64,000 nucleotides of DNA from Pararhizobium capsulatum DSM 1112 (GTDB lineage: Bacteria; Pseudomonadota; Alphaproteobacteria; Rhizobiales; Rhizobiaceae). The DNA lies in NCBI RefSeq assembly GCF_030814475.1, contig NZ_JAUSVF010000001.1:517001-581000 (forward strand). The letters are read 5' to 3'. Made by a program: the position numbers and the translations under genes. The notes under the pieces were generated by a model that made no database searches, had not been told where the DNA came from, and saw only the letters and a program-made list of their open reading frames with translations. Shown one piece after another: positions 25,161 through 32,716 of this stretch. Each line of letters starts with the position of its first letter. Position 1 is the first letter of the stretch.

Positions 25161-25378
25161 CAAGCCTGCGGCCGTGGCGCTTCTGTCACGGTCGCGCATT
25201 GATTGTCCGGCTAGCGATAACTGGCTAGATTTGCGGGGTGGAGTTTCCCCGTCTTGCATGATTTTCTCCGTCGTGACGACGCGACTCAGTTCGCATGGCC
25301 TCCTGCCATCGCGATCCGACACGCCGCCGCGGTTTGAATGCTGGCGCTGATTTTTCCAGCATAGACACGGAGATCTCT

Positions 25379-26440
25379 ATGAAAATCAAAGCTCTTTTTG
25401 CCGGCTCGGTTGCCGCGCTTACCTTCGTTCCAGCAGCTTATGCTGCCGATGCCGTTGTAGCGGCCGAACCCGAGCCGATGGAATATGTGCGCGTCTGCGA
25501 CGCCTATGGTGCCGGGTATTTCTACATTCCGGGCGGTGAGACCTGCCTGAAGATCGGCGGCTATGTCCGCTTCGACCTCGGCCTCGGCGACGATGTCTAC
25601 AGCGGCGAAGATATCGGCTTTTCGACCTTTACCCGCGGCACGCTGACCTTCGATGCCCGCAATGATACCGAGATCGGCACCGTGCGCTCCTTCATCGAGC
25701 TTCGCGCCGAATCGGATGGCGATACCTACATTAACGCAGCCTATATCGATGCAGCCGGTTTCCGCGCCGGCTATGCCGATTCGCGCTTCGACACCTGGCT
25801 TGATTCGGCCGGCAACATCATCAACGACGATGTCATCGACTATACCGGCGACCGCACCAACCAGGTGAGCTACGTCTATGAGGGCGGGAACGGGTTCAGC
25901 GCTCTCATCGGCCTTGAGGAAGGCGCCGGCGATTACGACACCGGTTATGCTCCAGTACCGACCGCCTTTTACGATGATGGCGACTGGCCGAAACCGATCG
26001 TGGGCGTGAAGTACGAGCAGGATTGGGGCGGAATCTCCGCCGTCGGAGGGTATGACCCGTTCGCGGAGAGCTTTGCCGGCAAGGTGCGCCTTGATGTGGT
26101 CTTCAACGACGTATTCTCCGCCTGGGTCATGGGCGGTTACCAGTCCGACTGGGATAATGACAAGGGTCCGGGCGGCACCCGTCGCTTGAATTACTTCGGT
26201 GCCTGGAATGGCGACTGGGCAGCCTGGGGCGGCTTCGCCGTCAAGGCCAGTGAAAAGGCCTCCTTCAACGCTCAGGCGGCCTATGAAGAAGACGGCACGT
26301 TCGCCGGCGCCCTCAATGTCGATTATGCGGTTGCCGACGGCCTGAGCTTCATGCCGGAACTCAACTACACCAGTTTCGGCGGTGAGCGCGGTGATGGCGA
26401 TGCTATCGGTGCCACCATCAGATTCCAGCGCGACTTCTGA
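25379..26440 (+). CDS. Alphaproteobacterial porin, first of tandem pair (353 aa)
   Basis: Outer-membrane beta-barrel porin of the Porin_2/RopA type. Signal peptide (MKIKALFAGSVAALTFVPAAYA-AD), then the family start 'AAEPEPMEYVRVCDAYGAGYFYIPGGETCLKIGGYVRFD' with two Cys that probably form a disulfide. Alternating hydrophobic strands continue to a C-terminal Phe (IRFQRDF) required for barrel assembly. ATG at 25379 follows ACGGAG. The 218-base upstream region holds several small hairpins but no clear regulatory motif. A paralogue of the same length follows. Confidence 0.93.
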   Translation: MKIKALFAGSVAALTFVPAAYAADAVVAAEPEPMEYVRVCDAYGAGYFYIPGGETCLKIGGYVRFDLGLGDDVYSGEDIGFSTFTRGTLTFDARNDTEIGTVRSFIELRAESDGDTYINAAYIDAAGFRAGYADSRFDTWLDSAGNIINDDVIDYTGDRTNQVSYVYEGGNGFSALIGLEEGAGDYDTGYAPVPTAFYDDGDWPKPIVGVKYEQDWGGISAVGGYDPFAESFAGKVRLDVVFNDVFSAWVMGGYQSDWDNDKGPGGTRRLNYFGAWNGDWAAWGGFAVKASEKASFNAQAAYEEDGTFAGALNVDYAVADGLSFMPELNYTSFGGERGDGDAIGATIRFQRDF

Positions 26441-26462
26441 TCAGCGCCCATGCGCCAAAACG

Positions 26463-26494
26463 ACCGGCACCTTTCCTTAGGTGCCGGTTTTGCT
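26463..26494 (+). terminator. Terminator after the first porin
   Basis: ACCGGCACCT (26463-26472) pairs with AGGTGCCGGT (26479-26488), 6-base loop, followed by TTGCTTTG. Strong stem, moderate T-tail. Confidence 0.8.
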
Positions 26495-26724
26495 TTGTCG
26501 TCATACCCGTCATCAAATCCCACCCGGCGTTCAACAAGGACGCGTATTCTCGCCCTTCGATCCAGGCCACATGTAAAGCGACGTCTCGGTTGAGGGTAAA
26601 CCTTAAATCGCTGCATCCTTCGCAATAATCGCGATTTTTGATAAATTGCGACCATCTGGACAACCTGCTCGCGAGTGCTGTAGTTTTGCCACATTCGATA
26701 TTTTCGTGTTGCGTGGGGGTAACT
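26495..26724. other. Intergenic region between the porins
   Basis: Between the first porin's terminator and the small frame at 26725 there is no convincing gene. It is relatively AT-rich around 26585-26700 and presumably carries the promoter of the second porin. No operator or riboswitch was recognised. Confidence 0.5.
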
Positions 26725-26853
26725 ATGACAGTTTACCTGATAGAATGTGACATAGACCCGTGGTCTTTTTACGCCGTCTGGCGCGCTGAGTCCGTCCGCG
26801 ATTCCGAGTTGGTCGGGCGGCTTGGCACCGGAAATTCATGTGTTGTCATTTGA
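26725..26853 (+). CDS. Possible 42-aa leader peptide upstream of the second porin
   Basis: ATG at 26725 is preceded by GGGGG at a suitable distance (GTGGGGGTAACT). The frame encodes MTVYLIECDIDPWSFYAVW... and stops at 26853, 17 bases before the second porin. No homologue recognised. It may be a chance frame in the 5' leader or a small upstream ORF affecting porin translation. Confidence 0.25.
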   Translation: MTVYLIECDIDPWSFYAVWRAESVRDSELVGRLGTGNSCVVI

Positions 26854-26869
26854 CACGATTGGGGATTTG

Positions 26870-27931
26870 ATGACCATCAAGAGCCTTTTGCTTGCTTCGG
26901 CAACCGCGCTTGCAGCTTTTCAGAACGCCACAGCAGCGGACGCCATTGTCGCGGCCGAGCCAGAGCCGATGGAATATGTTCGCGTCTGCGACGCATTCGG
27001 AAAAGGTTACTTCTACATACCGGGCACCGAGACCTGTCTGAAGATCGGCGGCTACGTTCGTTTCGATAATATGTTGGGTGAGAGCCCCTATAACGGGATC
27101 AACGACGGCTGGGTTGGCCATACCCGTGCCACGCTGCGCTATGACGCAGCCTCCGATACGGAATATGGTACGTTGCGTTCCTTTATCGAGCATCGTTGGG
27201 ATAACACGGATGGCGTGGAGAAGTTTACGCTGATCAGTTCCTATATCGAGCTGGGTGGCTTCCGCGCCGGCTATTCGGATTCGCGCTTCGACAAATGGCT
27301 GGATTCGGCCGGCAACATCATCAATGACGATGTCATCGATTACTCGCCAAACCGCACCCCTCAGGTGAGCTATGTCTACAAGACTGACAACGGCTTCGAG
27401 TTACTGATTGGCCTGGAAGAGGGCAACGGCACCTATAGTGCCGGCGGCACGACGGTCTACTACAAGGACGAAGACTGGCCGGATCCGCTGGCCGGCTTCA
27501 AGTACAAGCAGGATTGGGGCGGCATTTCCGCAATCATCGGCTACGACGCCCAGTCCGAAGAAATGGCAGCCAAGGCCCGCCTTGATCTGACCCTCAACGA
27601 TGTCTTCTCGATCTTCATCATGGGCGGCTATCAGTCTGGCTGGGATAATGAAGACGGCCCGGCAGGCTCGCGCCAGCGCAACTTCTTCGGTTCGTGGAAC
27701 GGCGAATGGGCAGCATGGAGTGGCTTTGCTGCCAAGGTAACTGACAAGGCTACGATCAATGGCCAGGCAGCCTATGAAGAAGACGGCACCTTCGCCGCAG
27801 CCCTGAACGTGGAATACAAGATGGTCTCTGGCTTCAAGATCATGCCGGAAATAAACTACACCGATTTCGGTGGCGTGCGTGGCGACGGCAATGCCTTCGG
27901 CGGCACCGTCCGCTTCCAGCGAGATTTCTGA
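26870..27931 (+). CDS. Alphaproteobacterial porin, second of tandem pair (353 aa)
   Basis: The same protein type and exactly the same length as the first porin. Signal peptide MTIKSLLLASATALAAFQNATA-AD, shared start 'AAEPEPMEYVRVCDAFGKGYFYIPGTETCLKIGGYVRFD', identical stretches such as LDSAGNIINDDVIDY, and a C-terminal RFQRDF. Differences concentrate in presumed surface loops (for example ESPYNGINDGWVGH and GNGTYSAGGTTVYYKDED). This is a tandem duplication with loop divergence. GGGGATTTG precedes the ATG at 26870. Confidence 0.93.
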   Translation: MTIKSLLLASATALAAFQNATAADAIVAAEPEPMEYVRVCDAFGKGYFYIPGTETCLKIGGYVRFDNMLGESPYNGINDGWVGHTRATLRYDAASDTEYGTLRSFIEHRWDNTDGVEKFTLISSYIELGGFRAGYSDSRFDKWLDSAGNIINDDVIDYSPNRTPQVSYVYKTDNGFELLIGLEEGNGTYSAGGTTVYYKDEDWPDPLAGFKYKQDWGGISAIIGYDAQSEEMAAKARLDLTLNDVFSIFIMGGYQSGWDNEDGPAGSRQRNFFGSWNGEWAAWSGFAAKVTDKATINGQAAYEEDGTFAAALNVEYKMVSGFKIMPEINYTDFGGVRGDGNAFGGTVRFQRDF

Positions 27932-27989: not shown

Positions 27990-28093
27990 TAGAGCTTGTC
28001 AGGGAAAAGTGGGGACCGGCTTTTCCCGAAAAGACAAACGAAGATAAGAGAATCTAGAGGATGTCTGGTTCAATCTGAACCAGACATCCTCTA
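27990..28093 (+). repeat. RIME-like two-palindrome mosaic repeat, copy 1
   Basis: A 104-bp element bounded by TAGAG and CTCTA. Palindrome 1 has CTTGTC/GACAAAC outer arms and GGGAAAA...TTTTCCC inner arms around GTGGGGACCGG. An A-rich linker follows. Palindrome 2 is a perfect hairpin (AGAGGATGTCTGGTTCA / TGAACCAGACATCCTCT, loop ATC). The right-hand TA provides the TAG stop codon of nudC on the minus strand. It resembles the rhizobial RIME/ABC intergenic mosaic elements. Confidence 0.85.
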
Positions 28094-29065
28094 GCGGTGC
28101 CAGTCCAGCCAGTCCCGCATAAGCTGATGGGCGATCGCGCCCTTCGGCGGCGGACCGAGCTCACCGGCGGCAAGGCTGACGCCGGTATTTCGCGCCAGCA
28201 TGGTGGCGGTTTCCTCACGGGTGAACCAGCGGCAGTCTTCCAGTTCCTGTTCGTCGCGGTGGATATCGCGGTTCTTCGCCTCCGCATAGCAGCCGATCAT
28301 TAGCGTGTGCGGCATCGGCCAGGGCTGCGAGGCATGGTAGCGCACGCGACCGATGCGAATACCGGATTCCTCGTGCGTCTCGCGGCGCACAGCATTTTCG
28401 ATCGTCTCGCCCGGTTCGACGAAGCCGGCAAGACAGGAATACATGCCTTCGGGAAAATGCGGACTGCGGCCAAGCAGACAGAGATCGCGCTCGAGATCGA
28501 TCGTCAGCATGATTACGACGGGATCGGTGCGCGGAAAGCTAAGATGGCCGCAGGCGGTGCAGATCCGTTTGTAACCGCCGGCCTGGCTTTCAGTCGCGCT
28601 GCCGCATTTGCCGCAGAAACGATTGTTGGCGTTCCAGGTGATCAGGCTCGATGCCTGCGCGAACTGTCCCAGAAGCTCGTCGGTGAGCATCTGCTGGCGA
28701 TAGAGGGTGCGCCCGTCCGCAATCTTGAACGGCTCGGGGAGCGTCTCCTCTGTCAGCCCGATCGGCACGGCAAGCCGCGGCTCGCCATTTGGCAGGAAGC
28801 CGAGCAGGATCGCGTCGTCAAGTTCCGGCTGCAATCCCGAAAGCTCGTAAGGTGCGAAGAGCGGATCGATGATCTTCTCGTCGTGCTTGACCACCAGCCG
28901 GCTGCCGGAGAAGGCCAATACATGCGCCCCCTCAGCCCGGAAGGCCTTTTCGACGCAATCGTCGGCTCGATGCTCCGACTGGCGGTCCAGGTGGTTTTCG
29001 GCAAAGGCGACGAGGGTGCTGGGTTCGGGATGCGGGCTGTGCAGGTCGAAGATCGATTTCGTCAT
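28091..29065 (-). CDS. nudC: NAD(+) diphosphatase / NADH pyrophosphatase (NudC, 324 aa)
   Basis: Nudix hydrolase splitting NAD(H) to NMN(H) and AMP; E. coli NudC also removes NAD caps from RNA. The zinc ribbon is CGKCGSATESQAGGYKRICTAC. The complete Nudix box GFVEPGETIENAVRRETHEESGI follows, then the NudC-specific downstream 'SQPWPMPHTLMIGCYAEA'. ATG at 29065 (MTKSIFDLHSP) is chosen; it sits 2 bases after the HIT gene stop, so the two are coupled. The TAG stop codon is the end of a RIME-like repeat. Confidence 0.93.
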   Translation of the reverse strand: MTKSIFDLHSPHPEPSTLVAFAENHLDRQSEHRADDCVEKAFRAEGAHVLAFSGSRLVVKHDEKIIDPLFAPYELSGLQPELDDAILLGFLPNGEPRLAVPIGLTEETLPEPFKIADGRTLYRQQMLTDELLGQFAQASSLITWNANNRFCGKCGSATESQAGGYKRICTACGHLSFPRTDPVVIMLTIDLERDLCLLGRSPHFPEGMYSCLAGFVEPGETIENAVRRETHEESGIRIGRVRYHASQPWPMPHTLMIGCYAEAKNRDIHRDEQELEDCRWFTREETATMLARNTGVSLAAGELGPPPKGAIAHQLMRDWLDWHR

Positions 29066-29067
29066 GG

Positions 29068-29472
29068 TCAGAGGTTTTCCAGTAGGCGGGCTGCGAATGC
29101 CTTGCGTTCTTCGTCGCTCCACGGCTCGGCCGTGCCGAAACCCCAGACAGGCCCCGGCCAGTTGGCGTCGCCTTCGCTGCGGGCGATGACGTGGACATGA
29201 AGCTGGCGGACGATATTGCCGAGCGCTCCGACATTAATCTTGGTCGCCCCGGTCGTCTTTTTCAATGCCGCAGCCACCATGTTGGTCTCGAATGTCAACA
29301 TCGTCTGGTCGAGCGGGGTCAGGTCGAAAATTTCCGAGATACCGTCTCGCTGCGGAATGAGCACCAGCCAGGGCCAGCGCCGGTCGTTCATCACCCGGAG
29401 CTGGCAGAGTCCGAGGTTGGAAACGAGCAACCCATCGCGTTCAAGGCGGGGATCAAGGGAAAAGTCAGACAA
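29068..29472 (-). CDS. HIT-domain protein with TTG start (134 aa)
   Basis: Histidine-triad nucleotide hydrolase fold. The motif region reads NIVRQLHVHVIARSEGD, so HxHxI with Gln replacing the first His of the classic triad. Early part: 'DPRLERDGLLVSNLGLCQLRVMNDRRWPWLVLIPQRDG'. No ATG fits: the TTG at 29472 has GGAG 6 bases upstream, and starting there gives LSDFSLDPRL, the normal HIT length. Upstream frame residues belong to intergenic and SRP RNA sequence. Upstream of nudC in a two-gene operon. Substrate probably a nucleotide conjugate; unknown. Confidence 0.82.
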   Translation of the reverse strand: MSDFSLDPRLERDGLLVSNLGLCQLRVMNDRRWPWLVLIPQRDGISEIFDLTPLDQTMLTFETNMVAAALKKTTGATKINVGALGNIVRQLHVHVIARSEGDANWPGPVWGFGTAEPWSDEERKAFAARLLENL

Positions 29473-29571
29473 GAAGAACTCCGGGCTTTGCGAATTATCG
29501 TTGTTTTGCAAATCAATAGCAGTTTTTTGAAGGCTTGGCTTGCTTTTGCTGGCGATATTGCCGATATGAGA

Positions 29572-29672
29572 GCCGGGAGGTTGGTGGTGGACGAGCCACT
29601 CGCCAACCGGGTCAGGTCCGGAAGGAAGCAGCCCCAACGAGCCAGGCACGGGTCATCGTGCCAGCCTCCCAC
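29572..29672 (+). ncRNA. ffs: Signal recognition particle RNA (4.5S, small bacterial type)
   Basis: About 100 bases containing the invariant SRP core GGTCAGGTCCGGAAGGAAGC followed by AGCC (from about 29610): the asymmetric loop and GGAA tetraloop that bind Ffh and FtsY. The ends pair (GGGAGGTTGG at 29575-29584 with CCAGCCTCCC at 29661-29670) to close the long hairpin. A TTTT run follows at 29674-29677. Position between the HIT gene and dnaX is the usual one in this group. Exact ends uncertain by a few bases. Confidence 0.93.
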
Positions 29673-29741
29673 CCTTTTCCTTACTGTCCTGTCTGGACAC
29701 GATTTGCAGCCAAGCGGCCCCATCGTGGGGAAAAGAGGGCG

Positions 29742-31628
29742 ATGAGCGAAGATAGTCTGATCCCGACATCCGAAAAGCCCGCCGCCTACCGCGTCCTTGC
29801 GCGAAAATACCGGCCGAAGGACTTCTCCGACCTTATGGTCGGCCAGGAGCCGATGGTGCGCACGCTCACCAACGCCTTCGAGACCGGTCGAATCGCCCAA
29901 GCTTATATGCTGACCGGGGTTCGCGGCGTCGGCAAGACGACCACCGCCCGCATCCTTGCTCGCGCGCTGAACTACAAGACATCAGAAATCGACAAGCCGA
30001 CCATCGACCTGCGCATCCCCGGTGAGCATTGCCAGGCGATCATGGAAGGCCGCCATGTCGACGTGATCGAGATGGACGCCGCCTCCCATACCGGTATCGA
30101 CGATATCCGCGAGATCATCGAACAGGTGCGCTACCGCCCGGTGTCTGCGCGCTACAAGGTCTACATCATCGATGAAGTGCACATGCTCTCGACGCAGGCC
30201 TTCAATGGCCTGTTGAAGACGCTCGAAGAGCCGCCGGAGCATGTGAAGTTCATCTTCGCCACGACGGAAATCCGCAAGGTTCCGATCACGGTGCTGTCGC
30301 GCTGCCAGCGCTTCGACCTGCGCCGTATCGCCGCGATCGATCTCGTTGTCCTCTTCACCACCATTCTCGAAAAGGAAGGTGTCGCCGCCGAGCCGGATGC
30401 CTTGGCGATGATCGCCCGTGCAGCCGAGGGTTCCGCCCGCGATGGCCTCTCGCTGCTCGATCAGGCAATTGCCCATGGGGCCGGTTCCGTCGAAGTTGAG
30501 GCCGTGCGCTCCATGCTCGGTCTTGCCGACCGCGCCCGCATCGTAGATCTCTTCCATCATATCGTGAAGGGGGATGTCGCTGCAACGCTCAGTGAGTTCG
30601 CGCGCCAATACGAGGCTGGTGCTAGCCCGTCCGTGGTTCTGACCGACCTTGCTGATTTCACCCATCTCGTCACCAAGCTCAAATATGTGCCGGATGCGGC
30701 CAATGACCAGTCGCTGAGCGAGATCGAGCGCACCCGCGGCGTCGAGTTCGCCTCTGGAATCGCGGTCACCACGCTGTCGCGTATCTGGCAGATGCTCTTG
30801 AAGGGTATTCCTGAAACGGAGAGCTCCTCGCGCCCAGCCGGTGCCGCCGAAATGGTGCTGATCCGGCTTGCCCATGCTGCCCACCTGCCGGCGCCGGAAG
30901 ATGCTGCACGTCGCCTGCTCGAACTTTCGGGTGGCGATGCCGGCCGTGCACCGACGGTCAATGGTAACGGTGCGGGAACACCGCAGGCCTTCCAGGGATC
31001 GAACATTCAGGCACGATCCATCGACACGCCGCCTGCCCAGCGCGCTAACGGAAATGGTGCAACGATGTTGCGGGCAGTGCCCGATACACCAACGCCCGCT
31101 GTGCAGATTGTCGGCCGCATCGAGGAAAAGCCCGCCGAAGCGCCTATTGTCAGCGCTGCCCCGAAGGCCCAGCCCAAGGTTCCGGTCAATTCCGTTGCCG
31201 ACATTGCCGAACTCTGCGCGAAAAACCGCGATATCCGCCTGAAGACGCTGGTGCGTGGCTTCGTGCGGCTCGTCAATCTCGAACCGGGGCGCCTGGAGAT
31301 CAACCTCCCCGAAGAAGCGCCGAAGACGCTGGTGGCCGATCTGCAGAAGCGGCTGGAGGAATGGACCGACATCCGCTGGATGGTCATCCTCAGCCGCGAA
31401 CCCGGCCAGCAAACGCTACTGGAGGCCGAGCAGCAGGCTCAGGAAAAGCGCCTCAGCGACGCTCGGCAGGACCCCGATGTCGCCGCCATCCTCGCTCGCT
31501 TCCCGGGCGCCAAGATCGCCGACGTGCGCATCAAGGGGCCGGATCCGGAAGTTGAGGAGCCGCAGGTCGTTGCCGTTGCCGAATCAGAGGAAGGCGACAT
31601 CCTTCCCGGCGATGATATCGAGCACTAG
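29742..31628 (+). CDS. dnaX: DNA polymerase III subunits gamma/tau (628 aa)
   Basis: AAA+ clamp-loader ATPase. Walker A is GVRGVGKTTT at residues 59-68, Walker B VYIIDEVHMLS, sensor 1 'FATTEIRKVPITVLSRCQRF', sensor 2 region 'GSARDGLSLLDQAI'. The zinc module between Walker A and B is degenerate: where E. coli has four Cys, the segment NYKTSEIDKPTIDLRIPGEHCQA keeps only one (about C97). The C-terminal tau-specific domain (from about 480, SVADIAELCAKNRDIRLKTLVRGFVRLV) is present. No clear slippery site for gamma was seen. ATG at 29742 follows AGAGGGCG. The stop TAG is the first codon of a RIME-like repeat. Confidence 0.95.
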   Translation: MSEDSLIPTSEKPAAYRVLARKYRPKDFSDLMVGQEPMVRTLTNAFETGRIAQAYMLTGVRGVGKTTTARILARALNYKTSEIDKPTIDLRIPGEHCQAIMEGRHVDVIEMDAASHTGIDDIREIIEQVRYRPVSARYKVYIIDEVHMLSTQAFNGLLKTLEEPPEHVKFIFATTEIRKVPITVLSRCQRFDLRRIAAIDLVVLFTTILEKEGVAAEPDALAMIARAAEGSARDGLSLLDQAIAHGAGSVEVEAVRSMLGLADRARIVDLFHHIVKGDVAATLSEFARQYEAGASPSVVLTDLADFTHLVTKLKYVPDAANDQSLSEIERTRGVEFASGIAVTTLSRIWQMLLKGIPETESSSRPAGAAEMVLIRLAHAAHLPAPEDAARRLLELSGGDAGRAPTVNGNGAGTPQAFQGSNIQARSIDTPPAQRANGNGATMLRAVPDTPTPAVQIVGRIEEKPAEAPIVSAAPKAQPKVPVNSVADIAELCAKNRDIRLKTLVRGFVRLVNLEPGRLEINLPEEAPKTLVADLQKRLEEWTDIRWMVILSREPGQQTLLEAEQQAQEKRLSDARQDPDVAAILARFPGAKIADVRIKGPDPEVEEPQVVAVAESEEGDILPGDDIEH

Positions 31629-31728
31629 AGTTTGTCAGGGAAAAGTGGAAACCGGTTTTCCCGAAAAGACAAACAGAAACAAAAGAAGTTAGAGGATGTC
31701 TGGTTCAATCTGAACCAGACATCCTCTA
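31626..31728 (+). repeat. RIME-like two-palindrome mosaic repeat, copy 2
   Basis: 103 bp, bounded by TAGAG and CTCTA; same architecture and orientation as copy 1. The second hairpin is a perfect stem (GAGGATGTCTGGTTCA with its complement). The left TA plus G is the dnaX stop codon, and the element fills most of the dnaX-ybaB spacer. Confidence 0.88.
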
Positions 31729-31766
31729 TTTCTAGCTTTTAAGCACATTTCGAAGAGGAAAATCCG

Positions 31767-32090
31767 ATGCGCGACCTCATGGGCATGATGGGCAAGGTCA
31801 AGGAAATGCAGGCCAAGATGGAAAAGATGCAGGATGAAATCTCCGCTCTCGAAGTCGATGGTGCGTCCGGCGGTGGGCTGGTGACCGTTCGCATGGATGG
31901 CAAGGGCAACCTCAAGGGCATCAAGATCGACCCTTCGCTGTTCAAGGAAGACGATGTCGAGATCCTCGAAGACCTGATTGTTGCTGCCCATAAGGACGGC
32001 AAGGACAAGGCCGAGGCCATCGCCGCCGAAAAGACCCGTGCGCTGACCGCAGGCCTCCCGATCCCGCCCGGCATGAAGCTGCCTTTCTAA
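31767..32090 (+). CDS. YbaB/EbfC-family nucleoid-associated protein (107 aa)
   Basis: A small dimeric DNA-binding protein. Typical sequence: [58 protein letters not shown], with an N-terminal coiled helix and 'tweezer' beta core, ending '[12 protein letters not shown]'. GAGGAAAA precedes the ATG. In most bacteria the order is dnaX-ybaB-recR; here recR does not follow. Confidence 0.95.
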
Positions 32091-32353
32091 AAGGGCTAAA
32101 CACGGCGATAGCTGGCGGATAGCCTAGATAGGCTAATCGAAGCTGCAGGCTCGGTGCCTTGCGGTCAAAATCCATGGCAAGGTCGCCAAAGCTTGACCTC
32201 GCAACAGACGGAGGTGGTCTTCGTGCCACCTCGAAGTGCTTGCAAATACCGCCAAGGTTCGCAGGCCGATAACGGCGCAAGTGCCGAGCTTCGCATGATG
32301 TCGCCTTCATGGTACAATTTCTCCGTTGGCTGGCAGGCGAGCGGAGAAACGGG

Positions 32354-32716
32354 ATGTCCGAAGAACAGGCGATCCGGACGATCTTGCATCTCTATGTCGA
32401 TGGCATGGCCTTCGGCAACGAAGTGGCCCTGCGAAAGGCTTTTCATGCCAATGCGCGGGTTATCGGCAACTATGAAGGTTCGGTCGAATGGCTGACGCGT
32501 GATGAATTCATCAGCGCCGTCCTTGCAGAGCCGCCAGCGCCACCGGATACCCAGCCTGTCATGGATATAGAGACGATCGACATTTCCGGCGATGCGGCGA
32601 GCGTCAAGGTTACCGACGAGTTCGCCGGCATGCGCTTTACCGATTATCTTTCGCTTCTGAAGATCGAGGGCCGCTGGATCATCGTCAACAAGCTCTACCA
32701 CCTGCATCCGGCCTAG
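32354..32716 (+). CDS. NTF2-like/SnoaL-type protein (120 aa)
   Basis: A cone-shaped NTF2-like fold is suggested by 'MSEEQAIRTILHLYVDGMAFGNEVALRKAFHANARVIGNYEGSVEWLTRDEFISAVLAEPP' and 'ASVKVTDEFAGMRFTDYLSLLKIEGRWIIVNKLYHLHP'. This resembles the putative lumazine-binding (Lumazine_bd_2) group. Catalytic or carrier role unknown. ATG at 32354 with GGAG 9 bases upstream is preferred to 32309. Its TAG stop lies in the first codon of RIME-like copy 3. Confidence 0.78.
   Translation: MSEEQAIRTILHLYVDGMAFGNEVALRKAFHANARVIGNYEGSVEWLTRDEFISAVLAEPPAPPDTQPVMDIETIDISGDAASVKVTDEFAGMRFTDYLSLLKIEGRWIIVNKLYHLHPA

Follow-up and report, generated by a model that had tools for sequence, protein, structure and literature searches.

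A 103-bp repeat of Pararhizobium capsulatum, most likely an IS630-type miniature transposon, supplies TAG stop codons at gene ends

The repeat described here, an element of about 103 bp present in five copies in a 64,000-nucleotide stretch of the Pararhizobium capsulatum DSM 1112 genome (contig NZ_JAUSVF010000001.1, positions 517,001 to 581,000; hereafter the window), can be compared with several small repeats of other bacteria, which we take as they are described in the excerpts of the cited papers that we consulted. The RUP element of Streptococcus pneumoniae is 107 bp long, and IS630-Spn1 has been proposed as its mover (PMC3049150, PMC2229807). RUP resembles our repeat in length, TA ends, IS630 link, strong fold and excess between convergent genes, but its ends are hybridised in one duplex, it carries stops in all six frames and it belongs to another phylum; landing at stop codons is not reported for it in the excerpts of these two papers. 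The BOX repeats of S. pneumoniae encode the stop of 36 annotated genes, without strong evidence for truncation (PMC3049150, Croucher and others), and they share with our repeat the supply of a stop codon. Unlike it, BOX is modular and tied to another insertion sequence, and the excerpts describe no mechanism involving end sequence and target word. BOX, RUP, SPRITE and insertion sequence (IS) elements are all in excess between convergent genes, which was interpreted as tolerance (PMC3049150).

Alphaproteobacterial counterparts of about 103-110 bp, likewise intergenic, are the CcrM-associated intergenic repeats (CIR), Bru-RS1/2 of Brucella and RIME of Rhizobium, which by description resemble our repeat in size or layout. 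CIR consist of two arms and a linker, with TA ends and GANTC (PMC2229807); Bru-RS1/2 measure 103-106 bp (PMC10800456, PMC2267715), and RIME appears in the excerpt only in passing and in the title of a reference (PMC2245857). The predicted fold and pair counts of our repeat likewise give two hairpin arms with a linker between them. However, the GANTC conserved at or in the terminal loop of CIR lies in the linker here (positions 59-61 in the source genome) and in only part of the copies (54 of 87 full copies overall, 40 of 64 in the source genome). No plasmid of S. meliloti, the host of RIME1, was among the 28 records matching the repeat at E 0.5 in a search of plasmids. The enterobacterial RU-1/ERIC and Coxiella QMITE2 are small miniature inverted-repeat transposable elements (MITEs) with TA ends, found at the 3' ends of some genes (PMC2759123, PMC5896051), and TA duplication is described for the enterobacterial repeats (PMC2759123). 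In one gene the normal stop was lost to RU-1, which is read through and gives a longer protein (PMC2759123), and QMITE2, also read through, adds 33 residues to one protein (PMC5896051), whereas the end of our repeat closes the reading frame at once. The connection of end sequence, target word and landing at stop codons turned up in none of the papers reached by our limited literature search.

Three of the five window copies close a gene with their terminal TAG (Table 1), and the stop positions that the first-pass annotation had given for these three genes are all exact. Family models confirmed its assignments of nudC and dnaX, as well as the identity of ybaB; the third gene, which it called NTF2-like, matches Pfam Lumazine_bd_2. 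Both ends of the element read TAGAGNNTGTC. The earlier description of TAGAG at both ends and two hairpins holds for only two of the three copies, because the copy at 32714 is a left part that has lost the second hairpin and the right end.

The proposal that insertion at the TA of a stop codon recreates TAG is borne out by three empty sites that could be aligned across the junction with an occupied relative (81-95% identical), all with the TA duplicated and TAG present before and after. Shinella zoogloeoides XJ20 has CTAG where ATCC 19623 has TA-GAG...CTC-TA; the two are 95% identical, the gap is exactly 101 (103-2), and the TAG stop of a permease is kept. The ribokinase gene of A. vitis CG957 has TTAG (CTTTAGGC), where the copy of Allorhizobium S4 stands between two TAs (93% identical). 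Sinorhizobium RAC02 compared with Shinella HZN7 again gives CTAG and a gap of 101 (81% identical). A fourth pair, A. vitis CG78 (empty) and F2/5 (with the copy), is 95% identical and shows the old TAG, with a far flank that cannot be aligned. Among the further plasmid relatives compared, one was unalignable and two had damaged copies; at 75-90% identity, the flanks of orthologues had diverged too far for the junction to be placed.

We propose that the repeat is a non-autonomous transposon mobilised in trans by an IS630-type transposase, as its ends and target suggest. It inserts at the TA within the palindrome YTAR (Y, pyrimidine; R, purine) and duplicates this TA, as the three empty sites show. 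YTAR is rare in coding DNA, and in frame TAR is a stop codon. Since each end of the element, read inward, continues from TA into GAG, a stop that is hit, be it TAA or TAG, is rebuilt as TAG in either orientation and on whichever side the gene lies, and convergent genes sharing a stop TA are both closed by a single insertion. Such an insertion probably survives because the protein is unchanged, while many other insertions would be purged. We consider this whole explanation, an IS630-type MITE that inserts at YTAR and finds in stop codons a harmless landing site, very probable; that the repeat is an IS630-type MITE is the most likely reading of its nature.

The enrichment of copies at stop codons was determined in the source genome (6.48 Mb, 7 contigs, containing the window). 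A core pattern with at most 3 mismatches matched 66 genome places, and a right-hairpin pattern 58 sites, 50 of them among the matches listed. The window and 53 stretches fetched around known places were searched with a profile, and 72 copies were accepted in these 54 stretches at scores of at least 50 bits; most of the rows dropped below this cut-off represented the right palindrome's second arm. The count applies to the fetched stretches, so that at least three further matches (C2:750319, C2:801259, C5:40678) and the right-hairpin sites beyond those listed are left out. The 827 genes used were called by a codon-usage gene caller built for the analysis, with public plasmid annotation and the family models for four window genes as outside checks. 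Exactly at the terminal triplet, 30 of the 72 copies end a gene, 13 with the left end and 17 with the right end, and a Y before the left end is combined with an R after the right end in 58 of the 64 copies having a right end. Unoccupied YTAR words number 710 in intergenic DNA, 117 at stops and 440 in coding DNA (plain TA in the same regions: 3824, 287 and 12319). Random landing on intergenic-or-stop YTAR would thus place 14% of the copies at stops (117/827), against 42% observed (Fisher P 7e-8).

The same excess appears in related genomes (G010, G002, G001 and G011; G000 is the source genome, and L numbers denote fetched stretches), in which copies were counted if they scored at least 30 bits and had the left end. 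Stops coincide with 22 of their 37 copies, two of which end a gene at each end. Pooled with the source genome, 52 of 109 copies lie at stops against 15.5% expected (P 2e-13), and in a stricter set, restricted to full copies and to genes whose coding score is good, the number is 39 of 87. On plasmids with public annotation, an annotated stop lies exactly at the copy end in 9 of 13 cases, and at both ends in two. These cases are the best place in each of 13 of the 26 matching records, with near-duplicate records and two short partial matches left out and further places within the same record outside the count; in two records the right end lies just past the BLAST match and was taken from the sequence. 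Over the fetched stretches and plasmid records, the enrichment at stops thus agrees with the first-pass proposal. Stops are met by the left end in 29 cases and by the right end in 25 (P 0.68, 109 copies), in keeping with a stop rebuilt in either orientation. No copy lies inside a predicted gene (0 of 72 in the source genome, 0 of 37 in the relatives), and over all 109 copies six genes enter a copy but stop elsewhere within it. Single copies close two convergent genes, one with each end, at L207:5001-5103, L234:5001-5103, L274:1501-1603 and L278:1501-1603.

Several single loci were recorded alongside these counts. The copies L103:7463-7565 (G000) and L225:5000-5101 (G002) are separate and share an intergenic region, where one occupies the stop codon and the other lies 8 nt behind it. 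The copy L115:8021-8123 is flanked by the two arms of a perfect inverted repeat of the genome (GAGCCCGCG / CGCGGGCTC), a position resembling the loop of a terminator hairpin. Two plasmids labelled Roseateles sp. XES5 (NZ_CP084753.1 and NZ_CP084754.1, UNVERIFIED_ORG) have 19 and 17 repeat places, and their species label looks wrong.

Insertion at these stops almost never altered the length of the protein, as expected for a harmless landing site, and the longer orthologue C-termini that truncation would predict were hardly seen. The closest named relative by DnaX among the 80 loci listed is Pararhizobium sp. YC-54, though nearer relatives may be missing there; the repeat has no match in any of these 80 dnaX loci from other species. 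All 25 genus relatives compared lack the copy and yet stop dnaX at the same position, with 15 TAG, 9 TAA and 1 TGA. The nudC end position is likewise shared with YC-54 (TAA), G002 (TAG) and G010 (TGA), and that of the lumazine-binding-like gene with G002 (TAG) and G010 (TAA). Across the fetched stretches, with orthologues required to be at least 70% identical and aligned into the last six residues and other rows dropped, length is unchanged for 13 of 14 occupied genes against G010 and 15 of 16 against G002, compared with 106 of 116 and 126 of 136 unoccupied control genes. The exceptions are an occupied gene in L093, which falls 1-2 residues short of its G010 and G002 orthologues; a partial copy in G010 (L222), which ends its gene 3 residues short of the G000 relative; and nudC of two more distant species, which ends 1 and 6 residues later. 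Truncation by insertion, considered as an alternative, accounts for hardly any of the cases. The old stop is TAG at the four empty sites; the nearest orthologues in G010 and G002 mostly end in TGA, which the proposal does not predict.

To see how far the preference is one for stop codons as such, copies per unoccupied YTAR were compared with distance from the gene end. Between convergent genes the values are 0.57 at the stop, 0.50 at 1-20 nt, 0.17 at 21-50 nt, 0.18 at 51-100 nt, 0.07 at 101-200 nt and 0.06 beyond 200 nt; for tandem genes they are 0.22, 0.21, 0.08, 0.05, 0.04 and 0.05, and for divergent genes 0.03. The densities at the stop and at 1-50 nt do not differ clearly (P 0.13-0.14). 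Since YTAR words 1-20 nt downstream are as densely occupied as stops, gene ends are special and stop codons as such are not; farther off the density is several-fold lower. Between convergent genes, 40 copies face 72 unoccupied YTAR at 0-20 nt and 13 face 105 farther away (P 9e-6), and for tandem genes density also drops past 20 nt (P 2e-6). Purging near promoters accounts easily for the tandem and divergent classes and less easily for the convergent one, and unannotated genes in long gaps may contribute to the gradient.

The structure of the element is predicted to comprise two hairpins (Table 1), and the full copies that were folded have z scores of -7 to -9. An alignment of 48 copies (46 distinct) has both-sided changes in 7 of the 18 pairs of the right stem and in none of the left. 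The whole structure has 21 cells with such changes against 4.7 in shuffles, a control that ignores relatedness. Read on the minus strand, the right hairpin leads into a T-rich tail and has a terminator-like score; the total of terminator-like sites in the region is not above that of shuffles. No known Rfam family matches the repeat at gathering score in the window, where the sole match is the small signal recognition particle RNA gene (RF00169) at 29576-29672, directly upstream of dnaX. Copies in G010 (L199-L223) often have a right hairpin of other sequence (GAGTATGTC...GACATACTC) and a nearly unchanged left arm; the arms look as if they evolve at different speeds, the right one being lineage-specific. 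The structured 3' end is a predicted one, and an effect of the hairpins on termination or mRNA stability is possible. Elsewhere in the window, at 25378-27931, two adjoining genes of 1062 bp each, with long repeats 72-81% alike, represent a tandem duplication.

Table 1. Repeat copies in the window, the genes that they close and the hairpins of the dnaX copy
Feature	Position	Strand	Remark
Full copy, 104 nt	27990..28093	+	right-end TAG, minus strand, is the nudC stop (28093-28091)
nudC, NAD(+) diphosphatase	28091..29065	-	family model; ended by the copy at 27990
dnaX, DNA polymerase III gamma/tau	29742..31628	+	family model; ended by the copy at 31626
Full copy, 103 nt	31626..31728	+	left-end TAG is the dnaX stop (31626-31628)
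Left hairpin	31630..31674	+	stems are element columns 5-11/43-49 and 13-23/27-37
Right hairpin, 18 pairs	31690..31728	+	terminal TA within the foot
Putative lumazine-binding protein (NTF2-like gene)	32354..32716	+	Pfam Lumazine_bd_2; ended by the copy at 32714
Left part of a copy	32714..~32803	+	left-end TAG (32714-32716) closes the lumazine-binding-like gene
Full copy, not at a stop codon	45036..45138	+	15 nt from the end of the gene on its right
Full copy, not at a stop codon	52726..52828	+	

The features of a MITE are present in the repeat: a length of 103 bp, many copies and no transposase gene. In the latter it differs from the IS630/Tc1-mariner insertion sequences, which share with it the duplicated TA target; ISY100, a member of that family, inserted in vitro into TA with normal TA duplication in 34 of 39 cases, according to the excerpt consulted (PMC2170065). 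We screened 30 Rhizobiaceae loci of the DDE_3 (IS630-type) family for TA-starting inverted ends and found TAGAG or TAAAG in 17, three of them at one end only; 14 of the 17 are located at YTAR. IS630 itself reportedly prefers CTAG, as Tenzen and Ohtsubo are said to have found in 1991. The regional IS630 ends TAGAGC.. share TAGAG with the repeat, one of them (L285) reading TAGAGCGTGTCA, and farther inward there is no match. The source genome has three DDE_3 matches, one of which, in L237, lies between TAGAGC ends unlike those of the repeat. At L305:889-2176, repeat-like ends (TAGAGTTTG / TAGAGTCTGTCAGA) surround an IS630-type element; this may be an IS that lies nested within a copy, or else a larger relative. 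Phage records gave no match to the repeat at E 1e-5.

Several observations weigh against an IS630-type MITE that lands harmlessly at stops. A transposase gene with the same inner ends was found neither among the 30 family loci nor among the DDE_3 matches of the source genome; TAGAG and a loose match are all that is shared. Between convergent genes, density drops more steeply than would be expected from purging near promoters alone. Of 46 gene-ending ends of full copies, 32 have TA as the far-end dinucleotide and 14 have something else: the far-end letters are 31 TAR, 8 CAR, 2 TGA and 5 others, which differs from the 25 TAG, 20 TAA and 1 TAT obtained when TA is assumed and joined to the next flank base. 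The joined flanks of the dnaX copy read TAT, which is no stop, though all 25 relatives stop there. Finally, for 14 of 19 occupied genes the nearest G010 or G002 orthologue has TGA as its stop. For the 18 occupied genes ending in TAG the number is 13, as compared with 7 of 16 unoccupied TAG-ending genes (not significant, P 0.16) and, together with 12 of 45 TAA-ending genes, 19 of 61 unoccupied controls (P 0.003). Enlarging the control from 28 to 61 TAR genes made the TGA excess smaller, and it is still present; quick turnover of TAG stops may account for part of it.

The TGA orthologues could also mean that the element inserts at TGA stops as well and converts them to TAG, carrying the terminal TA itself. 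Two copies, L103:7463-7565 and L096:7428-7530, do have TG with A at their far ends; for the former, the relative in G002 reads TGATCGCC, in agreement with the far flank. However, GA after the far end is not in excess (8 of 46), the TGA share among unoccupied TAG genes points to rapid TAG turnover, and the aligned empty sites had TA before insertion; they speak against T^GA insertion with an element-borne TA as a general rule, a version that we rejected. We regard conversion of TGA stops as very unlikely to be the explanation, though some insertions may have occurred at TG. Active guidance of the transposase or target complex to stop codons or terminators would fit the YTAR words at stop codons, which are 5 times denser in copies than all other intergenic YTAR, and the steep drop within 50 nt, convergent genes included. 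Such steering seems very unlikely, given the near-equal densities at stops and 1-20 nt downstream and the part of the gradient that purging near promoters also yields.

Alternatively, the hairpins may serve as terminator or mRNA stabiliser, the copies being retained by selection for this function and not for harmlessness. The very stable folds, the compensating changes of the right hairpin, its T-rich stretch on the minus strand and the fall in density away from the stop, which convergent genes show as well, favour this view. However, the left hairpin lacks such changes, covariation in a palindrome can also arise by templated repair, terminator-like sites of the region do not exceed those of shuffles, and the dnaX copy occurs in 0 of 25 genus relatives. 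Orientation is unbiased although the T-rich tail is present in one orientation only, and since either end meets stops equally, selection for one transcript structure is not evident. Retention for function is quite unlikely in our assessment.

Stop codons supplied by a repeat without truncation have already been described, in the excerpt consulted, for the pneumococcal BOX. For the Rhizobiaceae, one could speculate, as a rather unlikely extension, that an IS630-type transposon and its MITE are adapted to gene ends: their ends offer TAG or TAA, YTAR is a stop word on both strands, in-frame hits would be closed, convergent pairs served, and hits at TG may turn TGA into TAG. The preferred explanation, a MITE landing at YTAR, gives a simple and testable reason, in end sequence and target word, for how a genome may hold many copies of a repeat without harm: stop codons would admit the element safely in either orientation, and even where a single insertion meets two genes. 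For annotation, it warns that a repeat-terminal TAG can be a genuine stop codon. The near-identical 3' hairpins behind unrelated genes would also form a test set for the effects of hairpins at stop codons on mRNA.

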